Positions 1-21,831 of a DNA stretch of 64,000 bases are shown piece by piece. The notes beneath the pieces were generated by a model. It was given only the letters and a program-made list of their open reading frames with translations, did no database searches and was not told the origin of the DNA. The stretch lies in NCBI RefSeq assembly GCF_003003355.1, contig NZ_PVTQ01000008.1, positions 151,917 to 215,916 of the forward strand. Reading direction: 5' to 3'. The translations under genes were made by a program, and so were the position numbers. Positions within the stretch are counted from its first letter, which is position 1, and every line of letters starts with the position of its first letter. This DNA comes from Donghicola tyrosinivorans (GTDB lineage Bacteria > Pseudomonadota > Alphaproteobacteria > Rhodobacterales > Rhodobacteraceae).

Positions 1-2060
1 TGACATTGCCCGCGCCAATGCTGGACAGCCCCTCAAGGGCCGATTGCAGCGCCGCTGCATCCAGATTTTCCGCCAGAACAATGTCAGTGTATTGGCCCCG
101 ATAGCCCAGTTGCACCGCGCCGGTTGCGCCAAGCGCCAGCGTCTGAACCTCGGACGAGGTTGCGCCGGTTCGGGTCTGCGCCATCGCCGCATCCGCTGCG
201 GTTTCGGCCGAGGCCATCACGCGCAGCACATCCATGCTCTGGTTCACCGCACTGCCGCCAAAGCGGACCGACCATGTGCCGGTCGCCGCATCCAGCGCGA
301 CCGTGACGTCAACATCCGCATCCTCCAATGAGGTGCCGTCCAGACGGGTCGCGCCAAGGATCGCGTCCTTGACTGCTGCCGCGTCGGTGCCTGCAAAGAC
401 CGCAAGGTCAATGTCGTTGGTAAAGTAGGTGCCCGCAAAGGCCCCGATGCCGCTGGATTGCGACGTCAGCGTCGCCTGCGGCAGCGCCGCAGGGGTGAAG
501 GCGCGGTTGATGGCGGGGATTTCCGACCCAAGCGCCGCACCGCCAAAGGTCAGCTTCCACTGGTCCTGCGCCGTGACCGACACATCCACCGTCGCACCAG
601 TGGCCGAGAACGCGCCGCTGCCATTGCCAGCCGCCGCAACCGCTGCCGCCATGACCGAGGCGCTGGCCTGCGCATCAATCGCGCCCGTGGTGTAGGTGCT
701 GCCGCCATAGGCAAAGCTTAGGGTAAAGCTGCCCTTCACATCTGCCGCGTAGCCTTCCAGCACATGCACTGCGCCCGTCGCCGGCGCGACCGAGCCCGCT
801 TTCGGGCTGATGGTATACGCCATACCGCTGGTGGTGCCGACGTTGGTGGCAGTCATCGCGCCCATATCAACCACGCGCTGCGCAAGGCTGTTCTTGAACT
901 CGATGGTGTATTGCTGGGTCGCCGTGGGCGAGGTGATCGCGCGCACCACCAGATCCGCCGAGGCGGTCTTCGACAGGGTCGTGCCGCTGCCGTAAACCGT
1001 GCTGGTGCCCGACCCGAGGCCGAACATCTTGGCCAGCGCGTCATAGATCTGGCGCGGCTGCGAGGTCTGGATATCGACGTATTTCACATCCACATAACGC
1101 GGGCTGTTCGCGAATTGCAGACGGAAGCTGTCCGAATTGCGCGTCACACCAGAGTCGCGGTCAATCACCAGCGTATAGGCAGAGGCCGCAGTCCCCTGCG
1201 CCCCTTGGCTGAGAACCGTTGAGGCGTCCGAGGCATCATAGGCCAGCGACGGATCGACCGGCGGGGTCATGGCAAAGCCTTTGCCGCTGCCGGTGGTGTC
1301 CAGCGCGATCTTCTGGCCAGCCAGCGTGCCTTTCAGCTCAATCATAAAGCCGTCCGCGCGGGTGCCAGTGACGCTGACGTTATTCGATCCGAATAGGATC
1401 ATCATGTTGCTGGTCAGACGGGTGCGCAGGCTGAAATCATCCAGCGCCTCGCCGCTGAGGGCGCGGGTGTCCATCGACACCGATTTGCCGTTGTAGCTGA
1501 AGGCATAGACACCCTCGCGGAACGCGCCGGTGCTGTCGGTGGCCGACAGCTTGAACTTGGAATTCTCGGCGGGGGCAAAGACGATTTGCAGATCGGCGGT
1601 GCCGGAGACGGATGCGTCAACTTGCTCGATCGCGTGCAGGGTGCCGCTGGTTGCGGTCGCGCCTGCGATACGGTCTGCCACCTGCTGGTTCTGATAGGCC
1701 AGCGCCGGATCGACGGGCTGAGTCAGGGTCAGGCCGGTCACGGCCTGTCCGGCCAGATCGCCACTCATGGTCAGGGTAAAGCCATCGGCCATGGTGCCCG
1801 TCACGGCCACATTGCCATACCCCAGCAGCGCCTGCAGCGCCGAGGTCAGCTTTTGCTGCCAGACCAGATCGCTATCGCTGGCCGCCAGCGTCACTGCCGC
1901 CGAGCTACCGCCATAGGCGAAGGTATACTTGCCCTCGCGGACCGACAGCGCGCCATCGCGCATCTCGGCCACGGTCAGATCAAAGGCGCTGGACTGCTTG
2001 ACGCCGCCCTGCTGGGTCTCGGTCACGGTGCCCGTGGCCCCATTAACCAATGTGGCATCT
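1..2060 (-). repeat. Terminal block of B-type modules in the giant protein
   Basis: After the fifth A-type module the frame returns to B-type modules, for example LTSALQALLGYGNVAVTG near 1840-1790 and LQSALEGLSSIGAGNV at 47-2. Linkers such as SETQTLALGATGAV separate them. The block continues beyond the left edge, so copy number and the C-terminal domain cannot be seen. Confidence 0.6.
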
Positions 2061-5000
2061 TCCAGCGTTGCGGTGGCAGTGGCCAGCGCCGGTTTCTCAA
2101 CAGCGAACTCACCGCTGAGGGTCGCCATGCCCAACACGTCGATATCAACCGCGCCCGCCAGCGTCAGGTTGCCCGAGCTGTCGAACTTGGTGGCAAAGGT
2201 GCCTTCCAGCGTCAGATCATCCACACCGGTCAACGATGCGGTGCCGGTAATGGTACCCGACCGTTCGGTCGCGCCATAGGTGCCGGTGACGTCGTTCTTA
2301 CCGATCCACAGATCGCCCGAGCCATCGTCCAGCGCGGCCCGCACGCCGTTGACCTCAAGCGCGATGCTCACATCGCGGGCGATCACATGCCATGCTTTAT
2401 CGCCTGCGTCCGAAACCTCCAACTCGACCGAGAAATCGCCGCTCAGGGACGCCGGTCCAAGATTCAGCGCGCCGTCCAGTTCGACCGACAGTTCACGCTC
2501 GTTGCCCGCAAGGGCAAGGCTCTGGCCGGGCAGCAGGGTGACAGCCTCAGATGTGGTGTCCCAGTTGATGACAGGGGTAGTGCCTTCCAGCAGCAACTCG
2601 CCATTAACGATTTCCGAGTTCACGGTGAAGCGTGCATCATCGAAATCGGCCAGATCATAGCCGCTGATCGCCGCCTCTTTGATCGACGAGGTGCTAGAGA
2701 TCCAGCGGCGGCCCGCGCCGCCCAATTCTGTGGACAGGATCAGAACCCCGTCCATATCGGTCAGTTCCGCGCCGATACCCGCAGGGCCGACGTTGGCCGA
2801 CAGGCCCGCGCCACCAAGGATCAGCTGTTCCACCTGAACGGTGCTGCCATCGCTTAGGGTCACGGTCCGCGCATTCGCGCCCGTGCGGCTTTCGATGAAC
2901 ATCTGGCCGCTCATGCCGATGATGCCCGCGATATCGGCGTTGATCGCGCCGCTGAGGCGGGTCTCATTGTCCAGAAGGTTCAGGACATAGTCTTCGCCGC
3001 CCGTGGCGATAGCCATATTCTCGACCGCGCGGCCAAGACGGTTGTAGCGCAGGTTCAGATCGTTCGCTTCCAGCGTGACGCCCGACACGCCGCTAAGCGC
3101 AACGCTGCCGCCCACATCCAGCGCATAGCCGTTCGCGGTCACAGTGCCGCCCGTGGTCACACGTTCCACATAAAGCGCGCCATTGCCAGCGGTCAGCGCC
3201 GCGCCGACACCGCCAGGGGTCAGCGAGCCTGCCAGGCCCGACAGGCCGATTTGCAGGCGGGTGGTGTCCACATTGCCGACCGTCGTGGTCTCGGACGAGA
3301 TCGCCAGCGCACCGGAGATCGAGCCCAAACCGTCGATGACCAGCGTGCCATCGGTGATCACCAGCTCGCGCACATCGGCGGCGCTGTCGAAGGCCACGGC
3401 GATATCGGTGCCGCCCACGGTGATGGTCTTGTTGACCGCCTCGCGCAGGGTGTTGATGCGGATATCGGCGGTCGCCGACATCGAAAGACCGTCCAGACCC
3501 GACAGGCTGGCCGAGGCCGCGCCAACCAGCGCATAGCCATCGGCTCCGGCCGCGTTCTGACCGATGTAAAGGCCAAGCTGACCGCCGGACACAGTAATCC
3601 CGCCAAAGTCCGCGCCCGCGTTGTTCAGACCGACCAGCAGGCTGTCTGCGGATTTCTCAACGGCAAAGTCGCCAGTGATCGCGCCAAAGCCGTCAATCGC
3701 CACGTTGATGCCGGTGCCCGACAGGGCCAGATCATCGCCCGCGAAAGTGGCCGAGAGGCTACCGCTGGCCGACAGACCGCCAAGACCTGCAATCACCACA
3801 TCGCCCGAGATCGAACCCGAGTTCGCACCGGTTTCAAGATGCAGGGTGCCTGCGCCGTTCTCGATCGCGACCTTCGCGCCGCCTGCGGTGACTGCAACGG
3901 TCACGTCCTGCGCGGTGATGTCCCAGATACGTTCGCCCGCGTCGTTCTTGTCCAGAACGATGACGAAATCGCCGCCCAAACGGGCCGCGCCGAAATCAAT
4001 GTCGCCGCTGACGGGGATTTCCCAACGACGGTCCGCCATGTCCATAACGGCGGTCTTGGCCGCGTCCTGAGCGGACAGAGCCAGCGTTTGAACATCGTTG
4101 CCCCAGTTGATGACGGTGGCGGTCGCGTCCTCGATCAGCGCGCCTGCGGTGGTCAGCTTCTGGTTCAGCACCAGCTTGGCGCTGTCGATGCTGGCAACCT
4201 CTTGATCCAGAACGGTAATGCTGCCGATCGAACCGGTGGCCGACAGCCAGCGTTCATTCGCATCAGTGGTGTCTTGCGACAGCACCAGCGCCAGATCGCC
4301 GCCGCCAAGGGCCGCGTAGGTGGTGCCGCCTTGGGCATAGCTGACAGACAGGTTGCTGCCGCCAATAATAGTCTGGTCCAGCGTCACCGCACTGGTCGCA
4401 CCTGTGCCGTCGATCAACTGGCTGGTGACGTCTTCGCGGACCTCAACGAACAGATCGCCCGACAGGGTCAGACCTGCAATCTGCGCGGTCGCCTGACCCG
4501 AGATGCGGGTCTCGTTGTCCAGCAGGTTGATGGTATATTCGCCTGCGCCGGTCTCAACCGCCAGACCTTCGACGGCCTGACCCAGACGGTTGTAGCTGAC
4601 CTTCATGTTGGTGGCCGACAGGCTGACGCCCTCGGCGCCGGTCAGGGCCACGTCGCCCTCAAGCTGCACCGCATAGGTGCCCGCCGCGCTGCCGACCTTG
4701 TTCAGCACAATCGCGCCGCGCCCGTTCGACAGGGTCGCGCCCAATGCGCCAAGATCCAGCGCACCGCCCGCATTTGCCATGCCGATCTTGGTCGAGACGA
4801 CAGTCTGACCTGCGTCATTCACGGTGGTCTCATTGGTGATGGCGATGGCACCCGAAACGCTGCCAAGACCGTCAACGGTGACGGTCGCGGTGCCGATGGA
4901 CAGCTCTTGCACGTCGGCAGAGGAGTCAAAGGCGATGTTCACGCCGCCTATGGTCTTATCGACGGTCTGTTTCAGAGTGTTGACGCGGATTTCCGCGTCC

Positions 5001-8000
5001 GTCGCGCTGGCCGAGATGCCTGCAAAGCCGCTAAGGGCCACGTCGCCCTTGGCCACCAGCGCATAACCCGCGCGGTCTTCGCTGCGGGCCGCGATGTAAA
5101 GTCCAAGCTGGCCGCCACTCATGGCAAAGCCTGCACCCGCCGCGCCCACATCGGCGGCCACATTGCTGGCCGACAGCAGAATGTCGCCCTCTGCCGATTT
5201 TTGCAGCGCCACATCGCCGGTGATGGTGCCAAAGCCGTCGACGGCAATGTCCATACCCGTGGCCGAGAAGGCCATGTTGCCGTTGCCATCAAACGATGCG
5301 CTCAGCAGACCGCTGAGAGAGATGCCACCAAGCCCGTCCACATTCGCGGTGCCGGTCAGGGTGCCGCTGGGGCTTTGACCCTGTTCGAACACCAGCGATC
5401 CGGTGACGCCGGTCAAACCAATAAAGGCCCCGCCCGCGTTGTAGCCCAGATCGGCGTTTTCCGCCTCAATCGTCCAGACATCGTTCGGGCCGGTCTGGTC
5501 CAGCGTGATCTTGAACGATCCGCCAAGAACCGCGCCGCCAAGGTTAAGCTGGCCGTTGATCGGCAGTTGCACCACCGGACCAACCAGATCAAGGGTCAGG
5601 GATTTGACGTCCGACAGCTCCAGCTCTTTGGCGTTTGCCGACCAGTCGATGACCGTGGTCTGCGCCGCATCAATCGCGCCGCTGGCCTGATCAATCGCGG
5701 TGTTCAACTGCAACGCTGCGGTGTTCAGATCGGCCAGATCATAGCCCGCAACGCTTAGCGCGCCCAAGTCGGCCTCGGTCGTGACCCAAGAGCGGCTTGC
5801 GCCCACTTCGGTCGAGTAGACCATCGCCACGTCGATTTCGCTGATCTCGACGATAGGATCGGTGACCGAGCCGCCCGCCAGCAGTTTGGCGGCGATGTTG
5901 GTGCCGCCGACGATCAACTGGTTCACGTTGATCTGGCTGTCATCGGTCAGGGTGACCGACTGGTTCTGGACGTTCTCGATGAACAGATCACCGGACAGTT
6001 GCAGCACGCCATCCAGCGTGGCAACGGCCTGACCGCTCATGCGGGTCTCATTCGCGGCCATATCGACCGCGTAATCAAGGCCGGGGGTCGCAACGGTCCG
6101 CGACAGGGCCTGACCCCAACGGTTGTAAGAGACCGACAGGTTGTTCGCTTGCAGGCTGATGCCCGCCACGCCCGACAGGGACACATCGCCATCGGCCTGT
6201 ACCGCGACCTTGTTGGTCACGCCGCCGTTGGCATCCACTTCCTGACGCAGCAGCACCGCGCCGCGACCATCGCTCAGCGCCGCTGTTGCGGGGCCAAGGG
6301 TCAGCGAGCCGGCCAGTTGATCGACGCCAATGGTCATCTCGGTGATGGTGACGCCCTGCACGATTTCCTGCGTGCGCACCAAGGTCAGCGCGCCGCTGAG
6401 GGTGCCGACCCCATCCACAGTGACCGAGCCGCTGTCGATGATGACTTCCTGACGGGAAACCCCATCGGCAAAGCTGATCTCTTGGCTGGTGCTGACGCCG
6501 GTGGGAATGGTCTGGCTGACCTCACGGCCCATGGCGTTGACGCGCACGGTGCCCGAGGCATTGATCGAAACCGCATCGCCAAAGCCCGACAGGGACACCG
6601 TCGCGCCTGCCTGCAAGGCAAAACCGGTGGTGCCATCGTCTTTGGTATCAATCAGCAGCGCCAGCGAGCCATCGCTCAGCGACAGGCTGGCCGTGGCGCT
6701 ATCGCCCACAGCGCCGGTCACATTGCTGGCCCCGATCAGGAAGCGCGGCGCCGTGGTCTGGGTGGTGGTGGTCGCGATGACCTCAAGCGCCTCGACATCC
6801 GCGCCGGCAAGGCCACCGATAAAGGCCACGTCCAGCGTCAGGGTATCCGCATCCGCCACGCTGACCGCGATATCGGCCCGCGCATAGTTGTCCATCTGGT
6901 CCAGCTGCGCCTTCAGCACAGCGGCGATGGTCTCGGCGTCCATGTCGCGCACGTCCACTTCGGTGGACCACACGTCGCTAGAGGCGACCCGCGCCATGAT
7001 CGAGGTCGGCATCGACCCATCCGCCTGCGTCAGCGTCACGCGCTGAACGGGCGAGACTTCAAGACGGGCCACGTCCTGCTGTGCCAGACCGCCCACATAA
7101 GCGACAGAGAAGATGCCAGCAGTACCGGTTTCGGTCACAACAACATTGCTGGCCGCGCCAATCGCGGTCAGCCCGCCAAGGGCGGTGGCCAGATCAGCAG
7201 CGGTAAGACCCGCAACCTCAAGCACGCCGGTATAAGAGGCCGAGCCGCTGACCGACAGACGCACGCGGGTCTGGCCGGACAGATCAAGGGTCTGGGTCTC
7301 GCTGGTGGTGCGGCCCGTGACAACACTGGTCAGCGCCGCATCGGGCGCAGGCAGAGAGGTCAGGATTTTGCCCTGCACCAAGGGCAGCGTCTGGCCGGTC
7401 AGGGTGCCGCCGAATGCCAGCTCCCACGAGCCGGTGCCGCCGGTTTCATTCAGCGTGACAGCCACATCCGCGCCGGTTGCCGCCAGACGCGCGCCATCGC
7501 TGGCTTGCGCCGCCAGAAGGGCTGCCTTGACCTGAACCGCCGTCGCCGCAAAGCCCAAGGGGGCCGAGACATAGGTCTTGCCGCCGTAATCCAGACGCAT
7601 CTCAAAGGTGCCAAGGCGCTGCGCGTTGTAAAGGTGCAGCTCTTGCACCGCACCTTCCGCGGCCGATCCGGCCTTGGTCTGCGCCGCCGTAAAGGTCGCA
7701 CCGGTGAAACCGGTCGCCGTCATCAGCGCCAGATCCTTGCTGCCCAAGCTGCGGGCAAAGTCGATCTTGAAGGTCGCATCCGACAGGCTGGTGCCTGCCA
7801 CAAACGCCACAGAGGCAGAGCCCGCGCCGAACTTTGCGATCAAGGCATCCTCGATCAGCTGCGCCTGCTTGTCCGCCGAGTATCCCGCGCTGGCTTTGCG
7901 GGTCTCGGCCACGTCGATGTCGATGGCCGAGGTCGAGGCATGCGCCACAATCGTCGGGATATCCTGCCCGCCAAAGTCATTGGCGAAGGTGACGATATAT

Positions 8001-11000
8001 TCGATCTCGTTGTTGGCGGTGAATTTGGTGTTATAGCGGACGGTGACGTTGCCCTGCCCCAGAATGGCCTCGAACGCCTCTTGCATCTTCGAGGTCTGGA
8101 AGCTGGGGTTGCCCGCAAAGCGGATCTTGGACGTGGTCTGGCCATTCACATCAAACCAGAACTGCCCCGAGGTGGTCGGCACAGCGGTGATGCTGATGGT
8201 CTGCTGTTCGTTCACCTGCGTGCCGTTGGGCAGATACTGGATCGCACCCGTAGTCTGGCCGTCAACGGTCAGGGTAAAGGTGTCAGAGCTGGTGCCACTG
8301 CCGCTGCGCTGAACGCGCAGGGTCTGGGTTTCATTCACGCCGGTGGTGGCGGGGCTGACCTCTTCGGTGACGCCCCAATCGGGCGCGTCCTGCAGATCGG
8401 CGGGCTGTTCCAGCCACAGACCTGCGCCGCCACGGGCATCGGCCAGAGAAATCGGCTTGCCCGCCAAAGCGCCAATGAATTCAAAGGTAAAGCCGTCCGC
8501 ACGGGTGCCAGTAACCAGCACATTGCCCAAACCGATGGCCGGAATCCGGGCAAGGGTATTCTGCAAACGGGTGACCAGCACCGCGTCCGACACAGGGCGA
8601 CCGTTCGCGTCCAGCGTAGAGACAGTCTGGCTCACCCCGTCATATTCCAGCGCATAAACGCCTTCACGGGCCAGCGCACCATCTGCGCCGGTGATATCCA
8701 GTCGGATTTTGGCGTTGGTGGTTTCCCCACCTTCTTGCACCGCATCCGAGGCGCCGCCATTGGCGGCGATGGCGGTGGACAGCTGCTCGATAGGCTGCGC
8801 GTATTCCGCCTGTTCTTTCACGAACGAGAAATCACCGTTCAGGCTGCCGATCCCTTCGACCGCCAGATCAAGGTTGCCCGCCAGCGACAGCTCATTATCG
8901 CTAAAGCTGGCCGTCAGGGACCCCGAGGCCGTCAGACCGTCCACCCCGATGATCGAGCCGACGCCCGACACAGTCCCGCTGACCCCATCGGTGGTGACGT
9001 AGAACGCCCCCTCGACCGAGTTGATGGTGACCGCGGCATCATTGGTGGAAACGGTCAGTTCCCCTTCGCCAAGACGCACTTCCCACGCGGGGTTGCCGCT
9101 GGTGTCGGTGTATTCGCTGACGTGGATCTTGCCGATCAGGTTCACGCCGCCGATCTGCACCGCGCCCACAACAGCGGCGGTGAAGCGCTCGGTGTCGTTG
9201 ATCAATGCCATCGACTGGCTGTCGCCCAAGGGCAGCAAGATGCTGTGATCGCCCGAGAAATCCAGAACCGGAGTGCCCACGGCCAGAAGGCTGCCGTCGG
9301 CGGCCAGACCGCGGTTGATTTCCAACATGCCGGTGGTCACGGCCACATCGGCATAGGCATCCACGCGGGCTTCGGAAAGGCTGGCGCTGGTGGTGATCCA
9401 GCGGCGGGCGGTGGCGGTACCGGTGACGACCTCGGTCGTCAGGACCAGCGCCATATCCACATCCCCCAGCACGACCGAGGCATCCCCTGCCGACAGATCC
9501 GCGCTCAGGTCCAGACCGCCAATGACCAACATGTCTGCGGTGATGGTCTCATACGTCGCGGTATCGCCCGAGCCGGTTTTGACGGGCAGCGAAACGCCTG
9601 CGCGATGCTCAAGGAAAATCTGGCCCGAGACAGCCATGACGCCATCAACAGCGGCACTGGCCTGACCGGTCAGGCGGGTTTCGCCCTGGGCCTGATCCAG
9701 CGTGATATAGCCCGTGGCAGTGGCGATCTGGGTGTCAATCGCGCGGCCCGTGCGGTTCAGCGACAGGGCCATATCGGTGGCGGAAACGGAAACGCCCGCC
9801 AGACCCGTCAGCGCGACCGAGCCTTCAGCCTGCACGGCATATTTCGTGGCCCCTGCGGAATCCTTAAAGACCAGAACCGCACCGCTGGCATCGCTCAAGG
9901 TGGCCGAGGCGCCGCCCATGCTGATGCCGCTGACAGCAAGGTTATCAAAGCCGATTTCCAACTGGCGACGGGTGCTACCGCCCACCGCCACATTGCGCGA
10001 GGTGATCCGCGCGTCACCGGTCAGGGTCGGGCCGCCCGCCACGCTGACCGACAGGCCGGTCACGGCAACGGATTTGACCTCAAGCTCATCCTCGAAGGCC
10101 AGCGTCAGAACCTGACCACCCACGGTGATCGTCTCTTGGATCGGGGTGCCAAGGGTGTTCAGCAGCACGCTGCCATTGGCCGCCGACAGGGACAGATCGC
10201 CCCCCAGACCATCCAGCGCCACCGCGCCATTGGCCACCATCGCAACGCCAGCCGCCCCCAGCGCATCGCGCTGAAGCACCATCGCCAGATCAACATCGCT
10301 GACCGAAACGCCATTGCCCGCAGTACCCACGGCAATCGCCGCGTCATTGGCCGCGATGACAAACCGCTCGCCTTGCGCAGTTTCCTGACGCTGGATGCTG
10401 AAATCACCCTGAATGCGGGCAAAGCCGTCAATCGCCACCGCACCATTGGCGGTGATCGCCAGATCGGGGCTGTCAGACGCAAACGTGACCGAGCCGGTCG
10501 CGTCAATGGTCATGCCATCAACGCCCGTCACCGACATCGCGCCGGTGATCGTGCCAGAGGCTTTGCGGTTGCTGTCAATCCGCAGCTGACCCGTGCCCTG
10601 CGACAGGGTAAAGGCCACACCCGCCGCCGCCGCAACCAGCGTCAGATCGTCAAAGTCGATGGTCCAGCTATCGTCGGTGCGGTCATAGGTCAGGCTCAGA
10701 TCGCCGGACAGCACATTACCATCTATGTTGATCGCGCCCGAAACCGGCACGGTGAAGACATCACCCACCTGATCCAGCACGAACGAGATACTGTCACCCA
10801 GATCAAAGCTGGCAGGCACCGACCAATCAATCGTCGGCACATCGGGCAGCGCGCCGATGGCACGGTTGATCGACCACTGGGCCACTTCCAGATCGGGCAG
10901 CATGTAGCCCGCGACCGAGGCCTCATAGATCCCCCCGCGCGAGGCCACCCACGACCGCGATCCTGTCTTCTCTTTCGAATAGACCAGCACGAAATCCGAG

Positions 11001-12889
11001 CGGTCAATCTCCAGCCCGTTCGATCCGCCAAAGCCTGCGCTGACATCACGGCCGGTCAGGCTGTACTCCACCACCCGCACGGTCGAGGCATCGGACAAAA
11101 GGCGCGTCGTGGTGCTGATATCCAGTTGCAAATGGCCCGAGAATGCCAGAACGCCATCAATCGTGGCCTCAAACTGGCCTTCTGCCGTGGCAGCACCCGC
11201 CGCCACATCCAGCCACAGAGCCTCGCCCGACAGCAGTTCGATCCGCTCGGCAGTGGTATCGCTGGCGGTGCTATAGGCCACCTGAATATTGCGGCCCGTC
11301 AGGGCGAACGCATCGTCAATCGCGATACCCAGATCAAGCTGGCCGTAAACCGCCTTGGTGGTCTGAACCTCGCCAATACCGCTGAGGTCCGAGGTGCTTT
11401 CCACCACAACGCCCAAGCGACCGGCGCTAAGCGTGCTGCTTAGGGCCCCAAGGGTCAGCGAACCGCTCACCTCATCGGCACCGATGACAAAGCGGTGGGT
11501 GCGATGGGTCTCGGTCGTCTGGGACGAAGTCGCAAAGACAAAATCACCCGAAAGCGTGCCCAGATCAGGCATAACCACCTGCGCATCACGGGCCACAAAC
11601 CGCGCCTTGCCGCTGGCGGTCGAGGCTTCAAAGCCCAACTGGCCCGTAAAGCCAAAGCCCGGCAGACCATCAATCGCGCCAGTACCGGTGGCGGCAATCT
11701 CAAACGCGCCACCCTGCATCCGCACATTCAGCGCCGCGCCCGACACAAGGGCCGAGGCCCCGTGCGCCGGATTGCCCAAACGGGCCGAAACGCCGCTGGC
11801 CGTAACCTGCAAACCGTCCGTCGCCGCGTCATAGGCAATGGCGAAATCGCCCGACAGGGACGCGCCGCCAAAGGCCGACAGCGCACCGCTGGCGGTCATG
11901 GTCAACGAAGGCGCGCCCGCGCCGAATTCATATGTGCCCGCTACATCGGTCAAGCCGCCGGTCAGGCCCGCCATGCCCCAGCTTGCGGTGCCATCGGCAA
12001 CGCTCAGGCGGGTGCGCCAGCCGTCCACAGTCTCAAGCACGGTGACGGACCAATCACCCGACACACGCATGCCCGACAGGTCCAAAGAGGCCGACAGGGT
12101 CAGCTCTTGCGGGACCTGATTGACCAGACCCGTCAGCCATTCATCCACAACGCCCTGCGCCTCATCCCCGACCACATTCAACTGGTCCAGAACAGGGATC
12201 GAGGTCGCGACCAGTTGCAAACGATCCGCCGAATAAACGGGGCGCATATAAACGCCGTTGCCCGCATAAAGGCCGGTGAAATTGCTGAACGAACCGGTCC
12301 GCTGCGACCAGCGGATGATGTCGAACACCTGACCCGCAGTGGGGGTGAAATCATCAAGGAAGGACAGCTCAAGCGTGCCATCCAGCGCCGCCGTGCCAGA
12401 GACCAGCAACTGGTCATAGGCATCGGTCAGCCCTTCCGAGGCAGGTTGAACGCCCGAGATCTCAATCGACAGGGTCGCGCTGGCATCCTGATCGTACGAG
12501 GCAACACTCAAAACGCCCGGCGAATTTCCAGGCGCGATCGTACCATCGTTGGTCAGTGCAGCAGTAACAGTCCCCTTGCCAGTCAGCGTCTGACCGGAAG
12601 ACACGGTAAGCGGGCTATCAACCCCATCCGTCGAAAGGGCCGTTTCAGAACCACTAGAGCCCACCAACACCAGGTTGGAAGGCTCTCCCGTAGGATCAAG
12701 CGTGGCAGGAGACTGGGTCGTGGTTTCGCCGGCATCCACGACCTGAACCGGATCACTTGGCGTTGGGTCCGAAGAGTTTAAAGTGACATCGCCCGATAGC
12801 ACAATTCGCTGTTCAAGGGTTTCCAAGCCAAAATCCGATCCGCGCTCATTGCCCGCATCGATTTGATCTTCGTCACGTTCGCCAGCCAT
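1..12889 (-). CDS. Giant repetitive surface/secreted protein with LEPR-XLL-like N-terminus (partial, C-terminus outside window)
   Basis: One reading frame runs without a stop from an ATG at 12889-12887 to the left edge, giving at least 4,296 codons. Residues 24-32 read TLEQRIVLS, close to the LEPR-XLL motif found at the N-terminus of giant envelope proteins. Residues about 98-145 carry an autotransporter-type repeat (GTIAPGNSPGVLSV), followed by a beta-rich segment with a FTPTAGQVFDII motif. The rest consists of two recurrent beta-rich module types, rich in Gly, Ala, Ser, Thr, Asp and Val and nearly free of Cys. There is no classical hydrophobic signal peptide. A weak AGGA lies 11 bases before the ATG. 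The gene diverges from an Omp85-type barrel gene, so export through or to the outer membrane is inferred. Function (adhesin, surface layer or matrix protein) is unknown. Confidence 0.88.
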   Translation of the reverse strand, partial: MAGERDEDQIDAGNERGSDFGLETLEQRIVLSGDVTLNSSDPTPSDPVQVVDAGETTTQSPATLDPTGEPSNLVLVGSSGSETALSTDGVDSPLTVSSGQTLTGKGTVTAALTNDGTIAPGNSPGVLSVASYDQDASATLSIEISGVQPASEGLTDAYDQLLVSGTAALDGTLELSFLDDFTPTAGQVFDIIRWSQRTGSFSNFTGLYAGNGVYMRPVYSADRLQLVATSIPVLDQLNVVGDEAQGVVDEWLTGLVNQVPQELTLSASLDLSGMRVSGDWSVTVLETVDGWRTRLSVADGTASWGMAGLTGGLTDVAGTYEFGAGAPSLTMTASGALSAFGGASLSGDFAIAYDAATDGLQVTASGVSARLGNPAHGASALVSGAALNVRMQGGAFEIAATGTGAIDGLPGFGFTGQLGFEASTASGKARFVARDAQVVMPDLGTLSGDFVFATSSQTTETHRTHRFVIGADEVSGSLTLGALSSTLSAGRLGVVVESTSDLSGIGEVQTTKAVYGQLDLGIAIDDAFALTGRNIQVAYSTASDTTAERIELLSGEALWLDVAAGAATAEGQFEATIDGVLAFSGHLQLDISTTTRLLSDASTVRVVEYSLTGRDVSAGFGGSNGLEIDRSDFVLVYSKEKTGSRSWVASRGGIYEASVAGYMLPDLEVAQWSINRAIGALPDVPTIDWSVPASFDLGDSISFVLDQVGDVFTVPVSGAINIDGNVLSGDLSLTYDRTDDSWTIDFDDLTLVAAAAGVAFTLSQGTGQLRIDSNRKASGTITGAMSVTGVDGMTIDATGSVTFASDSPDLAITANGAVAIDGFARIQGDFSIQRQETAQGERFVIAANDAAIAVGTAGNGVSVSDVDLAMVLQRDALGAAGVAMVANGAVALDGLGGDLSLSAANGSVLLNTLGTPIQETITVGGQVLTLAFEDELEVKSVAVTGLSVSVAGGPTLTGDARITSRNVAVGGSTRRQLEIGFDNLAVSGISMGGASATLSDASGAVLVFKDSAGATKYAVQAEGSVALTGLAGVSVSATDMALSLNRTGRAIDTQIATATGYITLDQAQGETRLTGQASAAVDGVMAVSGQIFLEHRAGVSLPVKTGSGDTATYETITADMLVIGGLDLSADLSAGDASVVLGDVDMALVLTTEVVTGTATARRWITTSASLSEARVDAYADVAVTTGMLEINRGLAADGSLLAVGTPVLDFSGDHSILLPLGDSQSMALINDTERFTAAVVGAVQIGGVNLIGKIHVSEYTDTSGNPAWEVRLGEGELTVSTNDAAVTINSVEGAFYVTTDGVSGTVSGVGSIIGVDGLTASGSLTASFSDNELSLAGNLDLAVEGIGSLNGDFSFVKEQAEYAQPIEQLSTAIAANGGASDAVQEGGETTNAKIRLDITGADGALAREGVYALEYDGVSQTVSTLDANGRPVSDAVLVTRLQNTLARIPAIGLGNVLVTGTRADGFTFEFIGALAGKPISLADARGGAGLWLEQPADLQDAPDWGVTEEVSPATTGVNETQTLRVQRSGSGTSSDTFTLTVDGQTTGAIQYLPNGTQVNEQQTISITAVPTTSGQFWFDVNGQTTSKIRFAGNPSFQTSKMQEAFEAILGQGNVTVRYNTKFTANNEIEYIVTFANDFGGQDIPTIVAHASTSAIDIDVAETRKASAGYSADKQAQLIEDALIAKFGAGSASVAFVAGTSLSDATFKIDFARSLGSKDLALMTATGFTGATFTAAQTKAGSAAEGAVQELHLYNAQRLGTFEMRLDYGGKTYVSAPLGFAATAVQVKAALLAAQASDGARLAATGADVAVTLNETGGTGSWELAFGGTLTGQTLPLVQGKILTSLPAPDAALTSVVTGRTTSETQTLDLSGQTRVRLSVSGSASYTGVLEVAGLTAADLATALGGLTAIGAASNVVVTETGTAGIFSVAYVGGLAQQDVARLEVSPVQRVTLTQADGSMPTSIMARVASSDVWSTEVDVRDMDAETIAAVLKAQLDQMDNYARADIAVSVADADTLTLDVAFIGGLAGADVEALEVIATTTTQTTAPRFLIGASNVTGAVGDSATASLSLSDGSLALLIDTKDDGTTGFALQAGATVSLSGFGDAVSINASGTVRVNAMGREVSQTIPTGVSTSQEISFADGVSRQEVIIDSGSVTVDGVGTLSGALTLVRTQEIVQGVTITEMTIGVDQLAGSLTLGPATAALSDGRGAVLLRQEVDANGGVTNKVAVQADGDVSLSGVAGISLQANNLSVSYNRWGQALSRTVATPGLDYAVDMAANETRMSGQAVATLDGVLQLSGDLFIENVQNQSVTLTDDSQINVNQLIVGGTNIAAKLLAGGSVTDPIVEISEIDVAMVYSTEVGASRSWVTTEADLGALSVAGYDLADLNTAALQLNTAIDQASGAIDAAQTTVIDWSANAKELELSDVKSLTLDLVGPVVQLPINGQLNLGGAVLGGSFKITLDQTGPNDVWTIEAENADLGYNAGGAFIGLTGVTGSLVFEQGQSPSGTLTGTANVDGLGGISLSGLLSASFDGNGNMAFSATGMDIAVDGFGTITGDVALQKSAEGDILLSASNVAADVGAAGAGFAMSGGQLGLYIAARSEDRAGYALVAKGDVALSGFAGISASATDAEIRVNTLKQTVDKTIGGVNIAFDSSADVQELSIGTATVTVDGLGSVSGAIAITNETTVNDAGQTVVSTKIGMANAGGALDLGALGATLSNGRGAIVLNKVGSAAGTYAVQLEGDVALTGAEGVSLSATNMKVSYNRLGQAVEGLAVETGAGEYTINLLDNETRISGQATAQIAGLTLSGDLFVEVREDVTSQLIDGTGATSAVTLDQTIIGGSNLSVSYAQGGTTYAALGGGDLALVLSQDTTDANERWLSATGSIGSITVLDQEVASIDSAKLVLNQKLTTAGALIEDATATVINWGNDVQTLALSAQDAAKTAVMDMADRRWEIPVSGDIDFGAARLGGDFVIVLDKNDAGERIWDITAQDVTVAVTAGGAKVAIENGAGTLHLETGANSGSISGDVVIAGLGGLSASGSLSATFAGDDLALSGTGINVAIDGFGAITGDFAVEKSADSLLVGLNNAGADFGGITVSGGQLGLYIGQNAAGADGYALVGAASASLSGLDGLSMSATADIRINTLREAVNKTITVGGTDIAVAFDSAADVRELVITDGTLVIDGLGSISGALAISSETTTVGNVDTTRLQIGLSGLAGSLTPGGVGAALTAGNGALYVERVTTGGTVTANGYALDVGGSVALSGVSGVTLEANDLNLRYNRLGRAVENMAIATGGEDYVLNLLDNETRLSGAINADIAGIIGMSGQMFIESRTGANARTVTLSDGSTVQVEQLILGGAGLSANVGPAGIGAELTDMDGVLILSTELGGAGRRWISSTSSIKEAAISGYDLADFDDARFTVNSEIVNGELLLEGTTPVINWDTTSEAVTLLPGQSLALAGNERELSVELDGALNLGPASLSGDFSVELEVSDAGDKAWHVIARDVSIALEVNGVRAALDDGSGDLWIGKNDVTGTYGATERSGTITGTASLTGVDDLTLEGTFATKFDSSGNLTLAGAVDIDVLGMATLSGEFAVEKPALATATATLEDATLVNGATGTVTETQQGGVKQSSAFDLTVAEMRDGALSVREGKYTFAYGGSSAAVTLAASDSDLVWQQKLTSALQALLGYGNVAVTGTMADGFTLTMSGDLAGQAVTGLTLTQPVDPALAYQNQQVADRIAGATATSGTLHAIEQVDASVSGTADLQIVFAPAENSKFKLSATDSTGAFREGVYAFSYNGKSVSMDTRALSGEALDDFSLRTRLTSNMMILFGSNNVSVTGTRADGFMIELKGTLAGQKIALDTTGSGKGFAMTPPVDPSLAYDASDASTVLSQGAQGTAASAYTLVIDRDSGVTRNSDSFRLQFANSPRYVDVKYVDIQTSQPRQIYDALAKMFGLGSGTSTVYGSGTTLSKTASADLVVRAITSPTATQQYTIEFKNSLAQRVVDMGAMTATNVGTTSGMAYTISPKAGSVAPATGAVHVLEGYAADVKGSFTLSFAYGGSTYTTGAIDAQASASVMAAAVAAAGNGSGAFSATGATVDVSVTAQDQWKLTFGGAALGSEIPAINRAFTPAALPQATLTSQSSGIGAFAGTYFTNDIDLAVFAGTDAAAVKDAILGATRLDGTSLEDADVDVTVALDAATGTWSVRFGGSAVNQSMDVLRVMASAETAADAAMAQTRTGATSSEVQTLALGATGAVQLGYRGQYTDIVLAENLDAAALQSALEGLSSIGAGNV
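2895..11190 (-). repeat. Five A-type modules of about 510 residues within the giant protein
   Basis: An anchor with the pattern (S/T)GQxxAxxDGxxxxSGxxFxE recurs at about 11185-11120, 9675-9605, 6045-5975, 4510-4440 and 2965-2895. Intervals are about 1.51, 3.63, 1.535 and 1.545 kb. Between anchors the same order of motifs returns: a VIGG/LDLS segment, a GYDLADL-type segment, a VIDW segment, a SGxxxIxGLGGxSxSG segment, an AIDGFGxIxGDF segment, an IRVNTL segment, a DxxELxI segment and a YNRLGxAVE segment. The copies are diverged (visible similarity in protein, not near-identical in DNA), so they are old duplications. The long second interval holds an inserted block of B-type modules. Confidence 0.75.
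6700..8820 (-). repeat. Internal block of B-type modules in the giant protein
   Basis: Here the A-type periodicity is interrupted by roughly 100-residue modules of another kind. Each contains a short helix-like stretch such as LQNTLARIPAIGLGNVLVTG or LATALGGLTAIGAASNVVVT, followed by a beta segment ending in a F/VxxxGxLAGxD pattern, and linkers of the type TETQTLDLSG. The pattern ALxxLxxIGxGNVxVT is familiar from giant LEPR-XLL proteins. Boundaries are approximate because they were set by eye. Confidence 0.6.
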
Positions 12890-13567
12890 ATCCGACCAAT
12901 TCCTGTCTTTATCGCCGTATTGGGCGGCGATCTGAAATGCACACTACGAGTCAGAGAAAAAACGCCCCGACCTTTCGAAATGCAAAATTTGCAGCCGATT
13001 GGGACCTTCAGAAAAATACCGAAGGCTCCGTCTCAAAAACCACTAAAACCATCTAACAAAAGATCAAAAGCGCCAGCTTCAAAAACACGGACCAAGCCCG
13101 CTAGCGTTTGTGAACTGATGGTTACGCTTCTGGATAGCATAGGCCCCGCCTTCCCACAAATATCCTTATGGATAAAACAGGTATCTATCTCTACAGCACT
13201 TATACTCTTGGGTATGGTTGCAACGGAAGTTCGAAATTATCAACAGAATGATTGCCTTAAACCGCGAAAAAACGCGTTACCTACAGTATTGAGTTGCACT
13301 ACGGAATTTCAAAACAATTTAAAGATGCACGCAAAGCCGGTCTTGCTATTCCCCGTACCGACCAATTACTCACCCAAAAGATACGCGCAAGACGCATGTT
13401 ATCCGCCAAACCAAGAAGCTGGCGCAAAGTCTTGCCATGAAAAACCGGCCATGTTAGCAAAATGAAATTCGCGTGAAGAAAAACAGGCACCCTCACCGAT
13501 TTGTCTTTCGAGTATGGCACAACGTCGTTGTTGTTTTGGAAAAGCCAATTCATTCAGGGAAAATCGA
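12890..13567. other. Divergent AT-rich intergenic region between the giant gene and the Omp85-type gene
   Basis: This 678-bp region is visibly richer in A+T than the flanking genes and carries no convincing gene. A plus-strand reading frame from 12863 to 13465 overlaps the start of the giant gene, is low-complexity at its N-terminus and has no ribosome binding site, so it was not called. Both flanking transcripts must start here, which makes it the likely control region of the secretion locus. Confidence 0.6.
12981..12993. promoter_or_regulatory. Palindrome TGCAAA-A-TTTGCA upstream of the giant gene
   Basis: Perfect 6-bp arms around one central base lie about 95 bp upstream of the giant gene start, where a promoter would be expected. 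It could be an operator. No cognate regulator is evident nearby. Confidence 0.3.
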
Positions 13568-14689
13568 ATGAAACCCCACAAGTTCTTCTCTGGGCTAATT
13601 CTATTGTCCAGCTTGTCTGTTTTTGCGCCCCAACTGCACGCAGCACCCGCCGCGTTCGAGGTCGACACTTCCTCTGAAGGGATGTTCAAGATCGGGCTGT
13701 TCTACGACAACCTCTACAAGACCACCTTCAATTTCACGCTGGAACAACAGAACCTTTTCGGCACCGACGACAATCTGGTTCTGGACGTCTCGCACAGTGT
13801 CTACAGCAGCGGCCTGACCGTCCGTTCGACCGATCCGGACCTGTTTGAATCCCCCTGGTCGCGGACCTTCTCGTTCTCGACCCGTCAGGTTTCGGCGAAC
13901 AAGGACGTGCTGCGCGATTACAGCTTTGGCACCGCCGACGCCGAGGTGTCCTTTGCCCGCGAACTGGGGCCGCATTCGGGCATTTCCTTCGCCGTGGGCT
14001 ACAACCTTCTGGACTTCAAAAAGTCCGAAGACGTGCCTCAGCTGGTCGCTGACGCCGAGGTTCTGCACGACGATCAGGTCCATACGGGCTATGTGGCGGT
14101 CCGCAACCAGTTCTCGACCCTGACCGAGGATGAGAATTTCGCCACTTCCGGCTCGACCATCGGCACCTCGCTTGAGATCGGCAACGCGGGCGCCAGCCCC
14201 TATGCGGTTGTGCAGGTCTCGGCGCAGCACTTTATGGCGCTAGGGGACCGGATGTTCGCGAAGGGCCGCGTTGCGGCCAGCGCGGGTTTCACCAACAAGG
14301 GCGAATTTCCGTTTAACAAGAACACCTTCGTGGGTGGCCCCGGCACCGTGCGCGGCTACAAACCCAACAGCCTTGGCCCCGTCTCGCCCATGGAATTCTC
14401 GGGCGAGGATGCGGTTGTGGGCGGCCAATACGCGCTGACCTCCTCGCTTGAGTTGGGGATGATCGTCGGCCCCAAGCGCAATCTGGCGGTCTTTGCCTTC
14501 ACCGATGCGGGCGACGCGGCCAATGACACCAACGATCTGCAACCCGGCAAACTAAAGCGCACCCACGGCGTTGGCCTGCGCTGGCAATCGCCCCTTGGCC
14601 CGCTGGATGTGTCCTATGCGGTGCCTGCCCACAAGAGGGACAACGACCGGACGCAAGAATTGCAGTTCACCTTGGGCTGGGTCTTCTAA
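13568..14689 (+). CDS. POTRA-less Omp85/BamA-TamA-family outer-membrane beta-barrel protein
   Basis: The product has 373 residues. A signal peptide ends near LHA-AP (residue 25). The rest reads as alternating beta strands, with VRGY at residues 261-264 inside VGGPGTVRGYKPNSLGP. VRGY is the hallmark of loop 6 of Omp85 and TpsB barrels. The last strands (DVSYAVP, LQFTLGWVF) end in a C-terminal Phe, as expected of a BAM substrate. Mature length fits a 16-stranded barrel only; there is no room for N-terminal POTRA domains, which BamA, TamA and TpsB have. The start at 13568 follows AGGGA by 8 bases; an upstream in-frame ATG at 13514 lacks a signal peptide. It diverges from the giant gene, suggesting a role in its export or assembly (inference). 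Confidence 0.8.
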   Translation: MKPHKFFSGLILLSSLSVFAPQLHAAPAAFEVDTSSEGMFKIGLFYDNLYKTTFNFTLEQQNLFGTDDNLVLDVSHSVYSSGLTVRSTDPDLFESPWSRTFSFSTRQVSANKDVLRDYSFGTADAEVSFARELGPHSGISFAVGYNLLDFKKSEDVPQLVADAEVLHDDQVHTGYVAVRNQFSTLTEDENFATSGSTIGTSLEIGNAGASPYAVVQVSAQHFMALGDRMFAKGRVAASAGFTNKGEFPFNKNTFVGGPGTVRGYKPNSLGPVSPMEFSGEDAVVGGQYALTSSLELGMIVGPKRNLAVFAFTDAGDAANDTNDLQPGKLKRTHGVGLRWQSPLGPLDVSYAVPAHKRDNDRTQELQFTLGWVF

Positions 14690-14706
14690 GCCCCTCGCCA
14701 CAAACA

Positions 14707-14735
14707 AAAAAACCCGCCAACCGGCGGGTTTTTCT
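14707..14735. terminator. Bidirectional intrinsic terminator
   Basis: A perfect stem AACCCGCC/GGCGGGTT (14711-14718 and 14723-14730), extended by A:T pairs, has an AACC loop. T runs follow on the plus strand and A runs precede it. It sits between the convergent Omp85-type and SapC-family genes and can serve both. Confidence 0.9.
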
Positions 14736-14754
14736 TTGGCCTTCGGACTGCCCG

Positions 14755-15519
14755 TTACTGCACGGTCTCGGGCACTTCCATCTCGGCCTTGGGTGCGGGC
14801 GCGGTGGCCTGCACATTACTTAGCTGGATGCCCAGATTTTGCAGCGAATGCATGTGCAGGTAGCACAGCTCCAGCTCATCAGAACGGAACATCGCCAGCA
14901 GATCCGCATCGGGGATCGCCTTGAATTTCTGGCGGTTGATCACCTGAAAACCAACCAGACGGCGGGTTTCCCCATCGGCGTCGGTCGCGCTCAGGGTGGC
15001 AGCCTCAAGCAGACCCAGCGACGCAAGACGCTTGCAGAAGGCTTGGGTCACGATGTGCTGACGCTGGTATTGGGTCACGAAGCCAAGCATATTTTCCAGA
15101 TACTGGGTCCGGTTGCCGTCCGCATCAAACAGACGCTCGCCGCGCCCATCGCGATTGATCCCGCTATAGGCCTCATCAAGGCACAGGGTCATGGTGTCCA
15201 CATCGCTGCGCGCGAAGATAAAGGGATAACGGCGCAGGAAGGCGGGCACATAACGGCCAGTCCATTTGCCATCTTCGTTCAGGTAGACGTTCTCATTCGG
15301 CTTCACGCCGGTCAGCGCCACGGGCACCATCGCATCGGCATCGCCGGTAAAGACAATCGCCATATCCTGAGCCGCCGAAGGGAATTCCGCCGCAACCACC
15401 GGAATGGAATTAATCCCGCGCGAGAATTCCAGATTGGTCGCCGGTTTGATCGAAACATCACCATGAGTGCTGGCGTTGATCGGCGACACGGATTCATACA
15501 TTTTTGCGATGTCAGACAT
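14755..15519 (-). CDS. SapC-family protein
   Basis: The 254-residue product matches the SapC family in length and in motifs such as YPF(I/A)FAR near residue 97, the AYSGINRDG-(E)RLFDADG segment near 117-131, and LxxLGLLE and the IPDADLLAMFRSDELELCYLH segment near the C-terminus. The family is named after an open reading frame in the Campylobacter fetus surface-layer locus; its biochemical role is unsettled. No signal peptide or membrane helix is seen, so it is probably cytoplasmic. AGGTGA precedes the ATG. It is convergent with the Omp85-type gene, and the family name and position suggest a link to the giant surface protein. That link is inference. Confidence 0.8.
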   Translation of the reverse strand: MSDIAKMYESVSPINASTHGDVSIKPATNLEFSRGINSIPVVAAEFPSAAQDMAIVFTGDADAMVPVALTGVKPNENVYLNEDGKWTGRYVPAFLRRYPFIFARSDVDTMTLCLDEAYSGINRDGRGERLFDADGNRTQYLENMLGFVTQYQRQHIVTQAFCKRLASLGLLEAATLSATDADGETRRLVGFQVINRQKFKAIPDADLLAMFRSDELELCYLHMHSLQNLGIQLSNVQATAPAPKAEMEVPETVQ

Positions 15520-16183: not shown

Positions 16184-16207
16184 TCATCGTCTTGAACCGA
16201 TCGCAGC

Positions 16208-16414
16208 TTATGCCAGCGCGATATCGGTTGCCGATTCGCGGCCGTCACGGCGCGATTCGATTTCGAAGCTGATCTTCTGACCTTCTTCGATGCTACGCAG
16301 ACCAGCGCGCTCTACTGCCGAGATGTGCAGGAAGACATCTTTGTTGCCTTCGTCGGGCTGAATGAAGCCGAAGCCTTTGGTTGCGTTGAACCATTTTACG
16401 GTGCCAGTGGCCAT
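16208..16414 (-). CDS. Cold-shock (CspA-family) protein
   Basis: A 68-residue OB-fold protein with RNP1-type KGFGFI (residues about 13-18) and RNP2-type DVFLHIS (about 27-33), the nucleic-acid-binding motifs of cold-shock proteins. The start chosen, [10 protein letters not shown], is the usual family start and follows AAGGAA; a longer frame from 16450 adds 12 residues unlike the family. It likely acts as an RNA chaperone. It is monocistronic with its own terminator. Confidence 0.93.
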
Positions 16415-16571
16415 ATCCGTGTTCCTTTTTAGAAATGCTACCCCCACCATTGGTGGCAGCTCAGTGCAGTCGATCCGAGTCGATCAACTTGAACTGAGCA
16501 TTCAGTCAAAGCATTTCGAACCTTAGAAACGTAAGCACATTCGATGTGACAGCAATTTGGAAAAAGCGCAA

Positions 16572-16617: not shown

Positions 16618-17409
16618 TTACCAGCAGCAGAAGCCCCCATCCACCAACAGATCAACGCCTGTACAATAGGACGCCGCATCGGACAGCAGAAAGACCGCAG
16701 GGCCGACCATCTCATCGACCGTGGCCATGCGCTGCATGGGTGTCTGGCTTTCGAACTCGCGGGTTTGGTGAATCATCTCGGGGCGGGTGTTCATCGGCGT
16801 CGCCGTATACCCCGGCGAGATCGAGTTGACGCGGATCCCGCGCCCGACCCACTCCATCGCCATGGATTTGGACAGGTGGATCACCCCAGCCTTTGAGGCG
16901 TTGTAATGCGCCTGATCCAGACCGCGGTTGACGATCACACCGGACATGGACGCGATATTGACGATCGCACCCCCCTGCCCGTGCGCCAGCATCGCGCGGC
17001 CTTGGGCGCGGCACGACAGCCAAACGCCCTTCATGTTGATGTCCATCAGGGTCTGGTACTGGTCCTCTTCCATATCCTCCACGGGATTGGCATTGGCGAT
17101 CCCCGCCGCGTTCACCGCCAGCCGCAGGGGGCCAAGGTCGGCCTCGGTCCGTGCAACCGCGTCGGCCAACGCCGCGCCATCGGTCACATCCGCCGCGATC
17201 TGCACAGACTTGCGCCCCGCTTTCGCAATGAAATCAGCCGTTTGCGCCAAACCGTCATCGGTGCGGCGGTCCAGTAGGGCCACATCCGCCCCGCATTGGG
17301 CCAAGCCCATCGCGATCCGCTGGCCGATGCCGCTGCCCGCGCCGGTGACGAAAGCCACCCGTCCGCTCAGATCGAACATGGCAGGGGCGTTCAGAGTAAT
17401 CTCAGCCAT
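16618..17409 (-). CDS. Short-chain dehydrogenase/reductase (polyol dehydrogenase-like)
   Basis: A 263-residue classical SDR with the cofactor motif TGAGSGIG near residues 21-28, NAAG near 99, a catalytic Ser in NIASMSG and the YNASK catalytic pair. SISPGY and the C-terminal VDGG are also family features. An Asp at the end of beta-strand 2 (LLDRR) suggests NAD preference. It is the last gene of the minus-strand operon with a ribose-type transporter, so it probably oxidises an imported polyol or its ketose. The start follows GGAGAGG. Closest named relatives by eye are tetritol and pentitol dehydrogenases; the substrate is not determinable here. Confidence 0.85.
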   Translation of the reverse strand: MAEITLNAPAMFDLSGRVAFVTGAGSGIGQRIAMGLAQCGADVALLDRRTDDGLAQTADFIAKAGRKSVQIAADVTDGAALADAVARTEADLGPLRLAVNAAGIANANPVEDMEEDQYQTLMDINMKGVWLSCRAQGRAMLAHGQGGAIVNIASMSGVIVNRGLDQAHYNASKAGVIHLSKSMAMEWVGRGIRVNSISPGYTATPMNTRPEMIHQTREFESQTPMQRMATVDEMVGPAVFLLSDAASYCTGVDLLVDGGFCCW

Positions 17410-17442
17410 TACGGCCTCTCCTTCAAAACTGACCCGTAGGGG

Positions 17443-18222
17443 TCACGACATAATCAGGCCGCCATCCACGTTGATGGTCTGGCCGGTAATATAATCGGCG
17501 TCGGCGCTGGCCAGAAAGGCGATCAGACCCGCCACATCCTTGCCCTCGCCCGCCCGTTTCATGGGGATGTTCTGGACCCAGGACTCCATCAACTCGCCCG
17601 GTTCATAATCGCCAAGCATCTCGCCCCAGACGCGGTCATTGTAGTCCCACATGTCGGTGCGGATGATGCCGGGGCAGATGGCGTTCACGGTGATCCCATC
17701 CAGCGCCACCTCTTTGGCAAGGCTTTGGGTCATGCCCATCACCCCGAATTTCGAGGCCGCATAATGGGGCGTATAGATGAACCCGTCCCGCGCTTGGCCC
17801 GATGCGATGTTGATCAGCCGCCCGCCGCCGTTGGAGCGCATACGCCGGATCGCCTCTTGGCAGCATAGGAACGCGCCCTTGGTGTTCACGTCCATCGTGG
17901 CGTCCCATTCCTGCTCGGTCAGGTCTTCGACGCGGGCGATGGTGATGATCCCCGCATTCTGGACCGAGACATCGACCGTCCCGAACCGCTGCACCGCTGT
18001 ATTGTACAGGGCCACCACGTCAGAGCGTTTGGTCACGTCGCAGACCACACCGATGGCGGTCATACCCTTGGCGCGCAGACCTGCGGCGGCCTCTTCCACA
18101 TTGGCCTCGAACGAGGCGATCACCACATTCGCACCCTCAGAGCCAAACCGGTCAGCAATCGCCAGACCGATGCCCTTGTTGCCGCCCGTGACCACCACGG
18201 TCTTGCCGGTAAATCGTTGCAT
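17443..18222 (-). CDS. Short-chain dehydrogenase/reductase, second polyol dehydrogenase-like enzyme
   Basis: A 259-residue classical SDR: TGGNKGIG near residues 10-17, NAG near 86, NIASGQA, catalytic YAASK, AICPGI and C-terminal VDGG. The resemblance is to sorbitol and galactitol 2-dehydrogenases of the SDR family. The start at 18222 follows GAGGAAAAG that overlaps the stop of the upstream ATPase gene, showing translational coupling; a longer frame from 18366 would overlap the ATPase. Two SDRs in one operon suggest two oxidations or two epimeric substrates. Confidence 0.85.
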   Translation of the reverse strand: MQRFTGKTVVVTGGNKGIGLAIADRFGSEGANVVIASFEANVEEAAAGLRAKGMTAIGVVCDVTKRSDVVALYNTAVQRFGTVDVSVQNAGIITIARVEDLTEQEWDATMDVNTKGAFLCCQEAIRRMRSNGGGRLINIASGQARDGFIYTPHYAASKFGVMGMTQSLAKEVALDGITVNAICPGIIRTDMWDYNDRVWGEMLGDYEPGELMESWVQNIPMKRAGEGKDVAGLIAFLASADADYITGQTINVDGGLIMS

Positions 18223-18232
18223 CTTTTCCTCC

Positions 18233-21807: not shown

Positions 21808-21831
21808 TCCTTCCTCCCTTAGCATCATGCC

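Follow-up and report, generated by a model that had tools for sequence, protein, structure and literature searches.

The described systems closest to the locus analysed here are type I secretion (ABC-HlyD-TolC), accessory Sec export with SecA2, type V or two-partner secretion with Omp85 barrels, and the sap locus of Campylobacter fetus, which encodes a SapC-family protein together with a secreted surface protein and relies on an ABC type I exporter. Type I secretion resembles the present case in its periplasmic adaptors, TolC-like outer-membrane protein and very large, cysteine-poor substrate, but here the motor is SecA-like rather than ABC, an adaptor is carried on an M50 protease-like protein, and the shared signal appears to be an N-terminal LEPR-XLL block instead of C-terminal RTX repeats. 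In accessory Sec systems, too, the housekeeping SecA is joined by another ATPase of the SecA type, whose gene neighbours that of a large surface-type substrate. The ATPase described here, however, falls under the SecA and SecA2 cut-offs, lacks the helical wing, two-helix finger and tail, and is accompanied in its operon by adaptors and a TolC-like protein instead of a SecY-like gene. As in type V and two-partner systems, an Omp85 barrel lies near a beta-rich giant with DUF5649 repeats, but here the barrel lacks POTRA domains and is found at a minority of loci, and the giant has no detected signal peptide. Where the C. fetus sap locus uses an ABC type I exporter, the present locus features a SecA-like/M50 module.

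For LEPR-XLL giants themselves, a search of the open-access literature found no named exporter apart from one Vibrio remark on RTX; PMC10868602 reports a Vibrio LEPR-XLL giant with a C-terminal RTX region. A search of the open-access literature returned no description of a SecA/HlyD/M50/giant export system, and the export machine predicted here would be previously undescribed.

The window, which is the whole stretch of DNA analysed, covers the last 64 kb of contig C8 in a genome of 4.68 Mb; window positions equal C8 positions minus 151916, and 72 kb were fetched to the left to complete the giant gene. From sequence and gene order, this locus probably comprises a giant protein together with a predicted dedicated exporter, made up of a SecA-like motor, an M50/adaptor protein, an HlyD-type conduit and a TolC-like exit. 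Genes, gene order, motifs, missing SecA parts and recurrence were obtained directly, and function was inferred from sequence and synteny. The features within the window are as follows.

1..12889, minus strand: N-terminal 4,296 codons of the LEPR-XLL giant, open frame
12767..12832, minus strand: LEPR-XLL motif FGLETLEQRIVLSGDV, proposed export leader (NCBIfam LEPR-8K; N-terminal conservation)
13568..14689, plus strand: stand-alone Omp85 barrel without POTRA, 373 aa (Pfam Omp85, 2.3e-40)
14755..15519, minus strand: SapC-family protein, 254 aa (PF07277, 4.5e-70), convergent with the barrel

The whole giant gene occupies C8:108667-164805 on the minus strand (56 kb), as a single frame of 18,712 codons with one terminal stop. 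It extends 43 kb beyond the left edge of the window, where the window frame (2-12889, minus strand) is open. An artefact or pseudogene was considered and rejected: C8:80001-165000 contains zero undetermined bases (N), the gene is one frame, and alignable relatives with the same operon occur in two other genera. These relatives, in genomes G097 and G288, are open frames of 17,824 and 15,884 codons, measured stop to stop. In BLAST alignments, the giant shares 42.7% identity with its G097 counterpart over 19,039 columns and 37.7% with its G288 counterpart over 16,728 columns; for the latter, a second piece at 30% reaches the C-terminus. The protein contains no cysteine in all 18,712 residues, and its net charge is negative in each 1,000-residue block; the G097 frame is likewise free of cysteine. 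Pfam finds DUF5649 repeats in the last third and some Ig-like domains, with mostly weak matches. No 19-residue segment reaches the hydrophobicity threshold before residue 1900, and thus no Sec signal peptide is detected. The three closest giants (this one, G097 and G288) end in D-x-P-L-[IF]-A-A-E, and the tail of the G093 giant (L136, L201) is LPLIAAE. Since the remaining printed tails differ, a shared C-terminal export signal was rejected as a general feature.

At the N-terminus, NCBIfam LEPR-8K (NF012209) matches residues 20-41 with 20.4 bits against a cut-off of 17, placing the giant in this family; in the whole-genome search its score was 25.3 bits. The initial annotation, which described a gene of at least 12.9 kb with a LEPR-XLL N-terminus and no classical signal peptide, agrees with this score and with the missing early hydrophobic segment. 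Conservation across 40 N-termini, which include three probable chance rows (L047, L062 and a frame of L182), is centred on F-x-[LI]-[ED]-x-L-E-P-R-[IL]-L-L-S-[AG]-D, a block of about 15 residues with poorly conserved flanks. The rows were chosen by pattern at positions 0 to 6, counted from the first L of LEPR, so that only positions outside these provide independent evidence; the unselected positions -5, -3, -2 and +7 to +9 still hold 1.7 to 2.1 bits. A short N-terminal block, on otherwise different giants with a shared exporter, resembles a targeting signal, and we propose from its sequence that LEPR-XLL may act as their N-terminal export leader. LEPR-8K also exceeds its cut-off in one of 14 control genomes, Deinobacterium chartae.

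Downstream of the giant, six further genes share its strand, spaced by -17 to +42 bp.

C8:108298-108624, minus strand: DUF3467 protein, 108 aa
C8:106689-108314, minus strand: TolC-like lipoprotein (outer-membrane efflux protein, OEP family)
C8:105832-106692, minus strand: HlyD-type adaptor
C8:103663-105813, minus strand: M50 (site-2 protease-like) membrane protein with a fused adaptor, 716 aa
C8:101591-103666, minus strand: SecA-like ATPase, 691 aa
C8:99759-101594, minus strand: GAF/HlyD protein (GAF-domain adaptor), 611 aa

The HlyD and OEP families supply the adaptor and TolC-type outer-membrane protein expected of type I secretion. The M50/adaptor, SecA-like and GAF/HlyD proteins reach no NCBIfam cut-off. 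The DUF3467 protein has no visible signal peptide. Neither an ABC exporter gene nor a SecY-like gene is present in the operon. The M50 assignment follows from the HExxH and second-ligand motifs, which are invariant in the 29 rows of the alignment; in the M50 proteins of the fetched loci, HExxH occurs in 106 of 106 and an NPLxRxDG-type motif in 87 of 106. The protein's own Pfam M50 score is 15.8, under the gathering score of 27.2.

The SecA-like protein has the SecA ATPase fold, with its DEAD motor and preprotein cross-linking domains (PF07517, PF21090 and PF01043) over their cut-offs. It scores below the cut-offs of all eight NCBIfam SecA/SecA2 models listed (for example 463.3 against 862 and 386.7 against 930), is 39% identical to the housekeeping SecA of the same genome (on contig C3), and in its best PDB alignment matches residues 16-554 of a 783-residue SecA chain. 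In all, 87 complete SecA-like proteins of at least 600 residues, this one included, were aligned against that housekeeping SecA. They span the motor and preprotein-binding domains, and occupancy drops to 0.00-0.01 across the final 210 residues of the housekeeping protein, which we take to be the helical wing, part of the scaffold, the two-helix finger working in SecY, and the tail. As aligned, the SecA-like proteins are without the C-terminal wing, two-helix finger and tail, and in this they fall short of SecA proper. Motor motifs are largely retained among the 87: DE[AV]D in 86, Walker A in 76, MAGRGTDI in 71, an arginine-finger pattern in 68 and TGTA in 52. In public records, one such protein is annotated as a prepilin peptidase (L282:23074-25098, NZ_CP085155.1) and another, in L281 (12031-14037), as a hypothetical protein.

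Co-occurrence of the giant with the M50 protein was scored with M50 at E<=1e-20 and LEPR-8K over cut-off in a frame no shorter than 1,500 codons. Among 394 genomes of the family, 48 have the M50 protein (60 matches) and 47 have LEPR-8K over cut-off in any frame. Both are found in 38, M50 only in 10, LEPR only in 0 and neither in 346 (Fisher 5e-44, relatedness ignored), so that 38 of 48 M50-positive genomes and 0 of 346 M50-negative ones carry a LEPR-XLL giant. A phylum sample of 398 genomes gave 54, 38, 1 and 305 in the same order (2e-40, relatedness ignored), or 54 of 92 against 1 of 306. Speaking against the link is a LEPR-XLL frame of 2,514 codons with no M50 match in G622. M50-positive genomes with no giant over cut-off number 10 of 48 in the family and 38 of 92 in the phylum; in two of the former (G089 and G112) LEPR lies just under cut-off in frames of 3,006-4,347 codons, and many of the phylum M50 matches score no more than about 300 bits, and other M50 families may be among them. 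The length rule set aside LEPR hits over cut-off in frames below 1,500 codons without M50 in 9 family genomes and in 13 of 14 phylum LEPR-only genomes. By distances estimated from motif place and frame length, an M50 gene is no more than about 4.3 kb away from 33 of 46 family giants (on the 3' side of 31 and the 5' side of 2); 6 giants lie farther from it, and 7 have none on the same contig.

When genome contigs were scanned more widely with the M50 alignment, at least 578 loci emerged. Record titles of the best 80 name Alpha-, Beta- and Gammaproteobacteria, Magnetococci, Desulfobacterota, Nitrospirota, Verrucomicrobiota, Planctomycetota, Fibrobacter, Elusimicrobia, Spirochaetes and others. 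At these best 80, many cut by contig ends, SecA-like genes occur at 69, TolC-like at 39, SapC at 10 and DUF3467 at 8. A LEPR-like block opens a frame of at least 700 codons at 13 of them, of which L047 looks like chance; the other twelve belong, by record title, to ten Verrucomicrobiota, one Falsiroseomonas and one Phycisphaerales. NCBIfam was run on ten of the twelve (nine Verrucomicrobiota and the Falsiroseomonas), and eight, all Verrucomicrobiota, are over cut-off. Giant and module are firmly linked in Pseudomonadota and Verrucomicrobiota; in most other phyla only the module is seen.

Gene content around the giants was compared at 30 further loci. In this genome, G097 and G288, the six-gene operon has an identical order; SapC and Omp85 are close by, but their positions vary. 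The survey took 30 adjacent giant loci excluding these three, both giant ends being fetched with flanks of 12-16 kb, and 20 control stretches, each 20 kb long, from the same genomes (900 kb surveyed against 400 kb of control). With M50 present at all 30 by construction, the GAF-adaptor was found at 30, the adaptor at 27, SecA-like at 25, SapC at 16, DUF3467 at 15, ABC genes at 9, TolC-like at 8 and small Omp85 at 6. The controls gave 0 for all module genes, SapC and small Omp85; the exceptions were ABC genes at 8 and one Omp85 of 786 aa. ABC genes are therefore not enriched at giant loci (9/30 against 8/20). The neighbourhood of giant, SapC and Omp85 that the initial annotation pointed out is thus recurrent, with both SapC and the barrel beside the giant in this genome, G097 and G288.

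The module also varies. SecA-like genes are missing at 5 of the 30 loci, one of them cut by a contig end; since the stretches seen at G263, G223, G187 and G414 have no such gene, the motor is not universal. The SecA-less variant is represented by L230/L231, L232/L233, L228/L229 and L234/L235, with none in the stretch seen. In G223 and G187 (L230-L233), the one-strand order is OEP-HlyD-Omp85-giant-DUF3467-GAF/HlyD-M50, and the position of Omp85 directly before the giant at these SecA-less loci ties the barrel to the system. Because TolC-like genes occur at only 8 of 30 giant loci and 39 of the best 80 of at least 578 wide-scan loci, the outer-membrane channel must often be encoded elsewhere or lie beyond the profile. 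Loci lacking SecA-like or TolC-like genes are either variants or have these parts encoded elsewhere. No Omp85 was found at the 80 wide-scan loci with this barrel's sequence as sole query and 10-kb flanks, which is weak evidence of absence because of that single query and because the giants often push their far neighbour past the flank. A plasmid of Pseudosulfitobacter sp. DSM 107133 encodes a LEPR-XLL protein, HlyD, a site-2 protease, SapC, a SecA-like protein that carries the annotation prepilin peptidase, and an adaptor, with no Omp85 annotated in the stretches read. Plasmid records hold 13 M50 relatives, five on plasmids typed conjugative. The M50 protein is present in 0 of 3 other genomes of the genus analysed here, which suggests that it was gained by transfer or repeatedly lost there.

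Type I export, by an ABC exporter encoded elsewhere while the SecA-like and M50 genes serve something else, is unlikely. It would account for the adaptor and TolC-like genes in the operon and for an RTX patch inside the giant (residues 8199-8308 of 18,712). By pattern, at least three RTX-like nonapeptides occur in 14 of 29 3' fragments of related giants, and at least two within the last 300 residues in 3 of 29. Given the C-terminal RTX region of the Vibrio giant, as reported in PMC10868602, a type I exit may exist for some LEPR-XLL members. However, a pattern search of the whole protein places the RTX-like nonapeptides of the present giant only at 8199-8308 and none at its C-terminus, the operon has no ABC gene, ABC genes show no enrichment at giant loci, and the strong LEPR/M50 co-occurrence would be left unexplained. 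The initial annotation had seen neither RTX repeats nor ABC/HlyD genes; this stands for the giant's in-window part and the genes it named, but not for the mid-protein RTX patch or the HlyD- and TolC-type genes to the left. Left of position 1, where it allowed for a C-terminal RTX signal and an ABC exporter, neither appears in the giant's end or the adjacent operon. Its view of a route unlike type I or type V fits the lack of an operon ABC gene, C-terminal RTX, POTRA and a detected signal peptide.

Quite unlikely is a maturation role, in which the LEPR leader is cleaved or modified by the PqqD-like/M50 protein and the SecA-like protein and adaptors act in quality control or other transport. Such a role would suit the top NCBIfam model of the M50 protein, daptide_HExxH (4.7e-49, yet under its cut-off), and the PqqD family name given to 4 of 12 listed plasmid relatives. 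PqqD matches were found in 3 of 29 members at E<=0.1 (best E 7e-4, a weak match), and residues 17-97 are predicted to form strands, then helices. Against this role, three adaptors, a TolC-like protein and an ATPase of the preprotein-motor family in one operon fit mainly transport.

The Omp85 and SapC genes match their initial description, a stand-alone POTRA-less barrel and a SapC-family gene convergent with it. The barrel frame opens at 13514 (13514-14689), and translation probably starts at the ATG at 13568, from where the sequence reads as a signal peptide. With 139.5 bits against a gathering score of 24, the barrel belongs to the Omp85 superfamily; Pfam finds no POTRA family in it at E<=0.1, and it lies below the BamA/TamA NCBIfam cut-offs (161.2 against 297.15 and 72.8 against 625), outside both families. 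The SapC protein scores 236.1 bits for PF07277, whose gathering score is 28.9. No signal peptide is seen on it, and its predicted fold (pLDDT 89.8) found no match in the PDB at E<=0.001. The open-access literature has nothing on the bacterial SapC family among the matches listed. By sequence reading, a cold-shock-protein-like short frame (about 16200-16415, minus strand) separates SapC from an ordinary sugar/polyol catabolic cluster at 16618-26236, with a short-chain dehydrogenase, a ribose-type ABC transporter and a transketolase, to which visual inspection adds a sugar kinase, another dehydrogenase and a SorC-like regulator. Most unlikely is Sec export followed by outer-membrane passage through the barrel, a two-partner-like route without POTRA and with SapC as helper: the barrels at this genome, G097, G288 and six of 30 other loci and the gene order of G223 and G187 speak for it, but the giant has no detected signal peptide or N-terminal hydrophobic segment, the barrel has no POTRA, small Omp85 is unseen at 24 of 30 giant loci (a count limited by contig ends and the 12-16 kb flanks), and Omp85 is not found at the 80 wider loci (own sequence query only). 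Giant, barrel and SapC had been put forward together as an export route; the neighbourhood is real, but the six-gene operon left of the window is a better candidate for the main exporter.

In the preferred reading, a dedicated SecA-like/M50 exporter, the LEPR-XLL block would serve as export leader, to which the M50 protein may bind through its PqqD-like domain. The SecA-like motor would then thread the unfolded chain, with the M50 membrane domain probably acting as its gate, because the parts that work in SecY are lost. At the M50 site the leader could be cut off, or the site could open the gate, and the three adaptors and TolC-like lipoprotein may carry the chain over the periplasm. SapC and DUF3467, both without visible signal peptides, may be cytoplasmic chaperones or pilots. 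At some loci the Omp85 barrel could assist in placing the giant or the channel into the outer membrane. Seen at a minority of loci, it more likely plays an auxiliary outer-membrane role than that of main translocator.

The chances are about even that LEPR-XLL is the leader of a separate secretion class, spread over several phyla and plasmids, with a pared-down SecA-type motor, an M50-gated port and an HlyD/TolC conduit, which exports substrates of up to about 19,000 residues with neither SecYEG nor ABC. LEPR-XLL giants thereby gain a candidate exporter, comprising motor, gate, conduit and leader, and the SapC family gains a working context. If true, a SecA motor that has lost its SecY-acting parts and is combined with efflux-type adaptors would mean that SecA can be rewired away from SecYEG.
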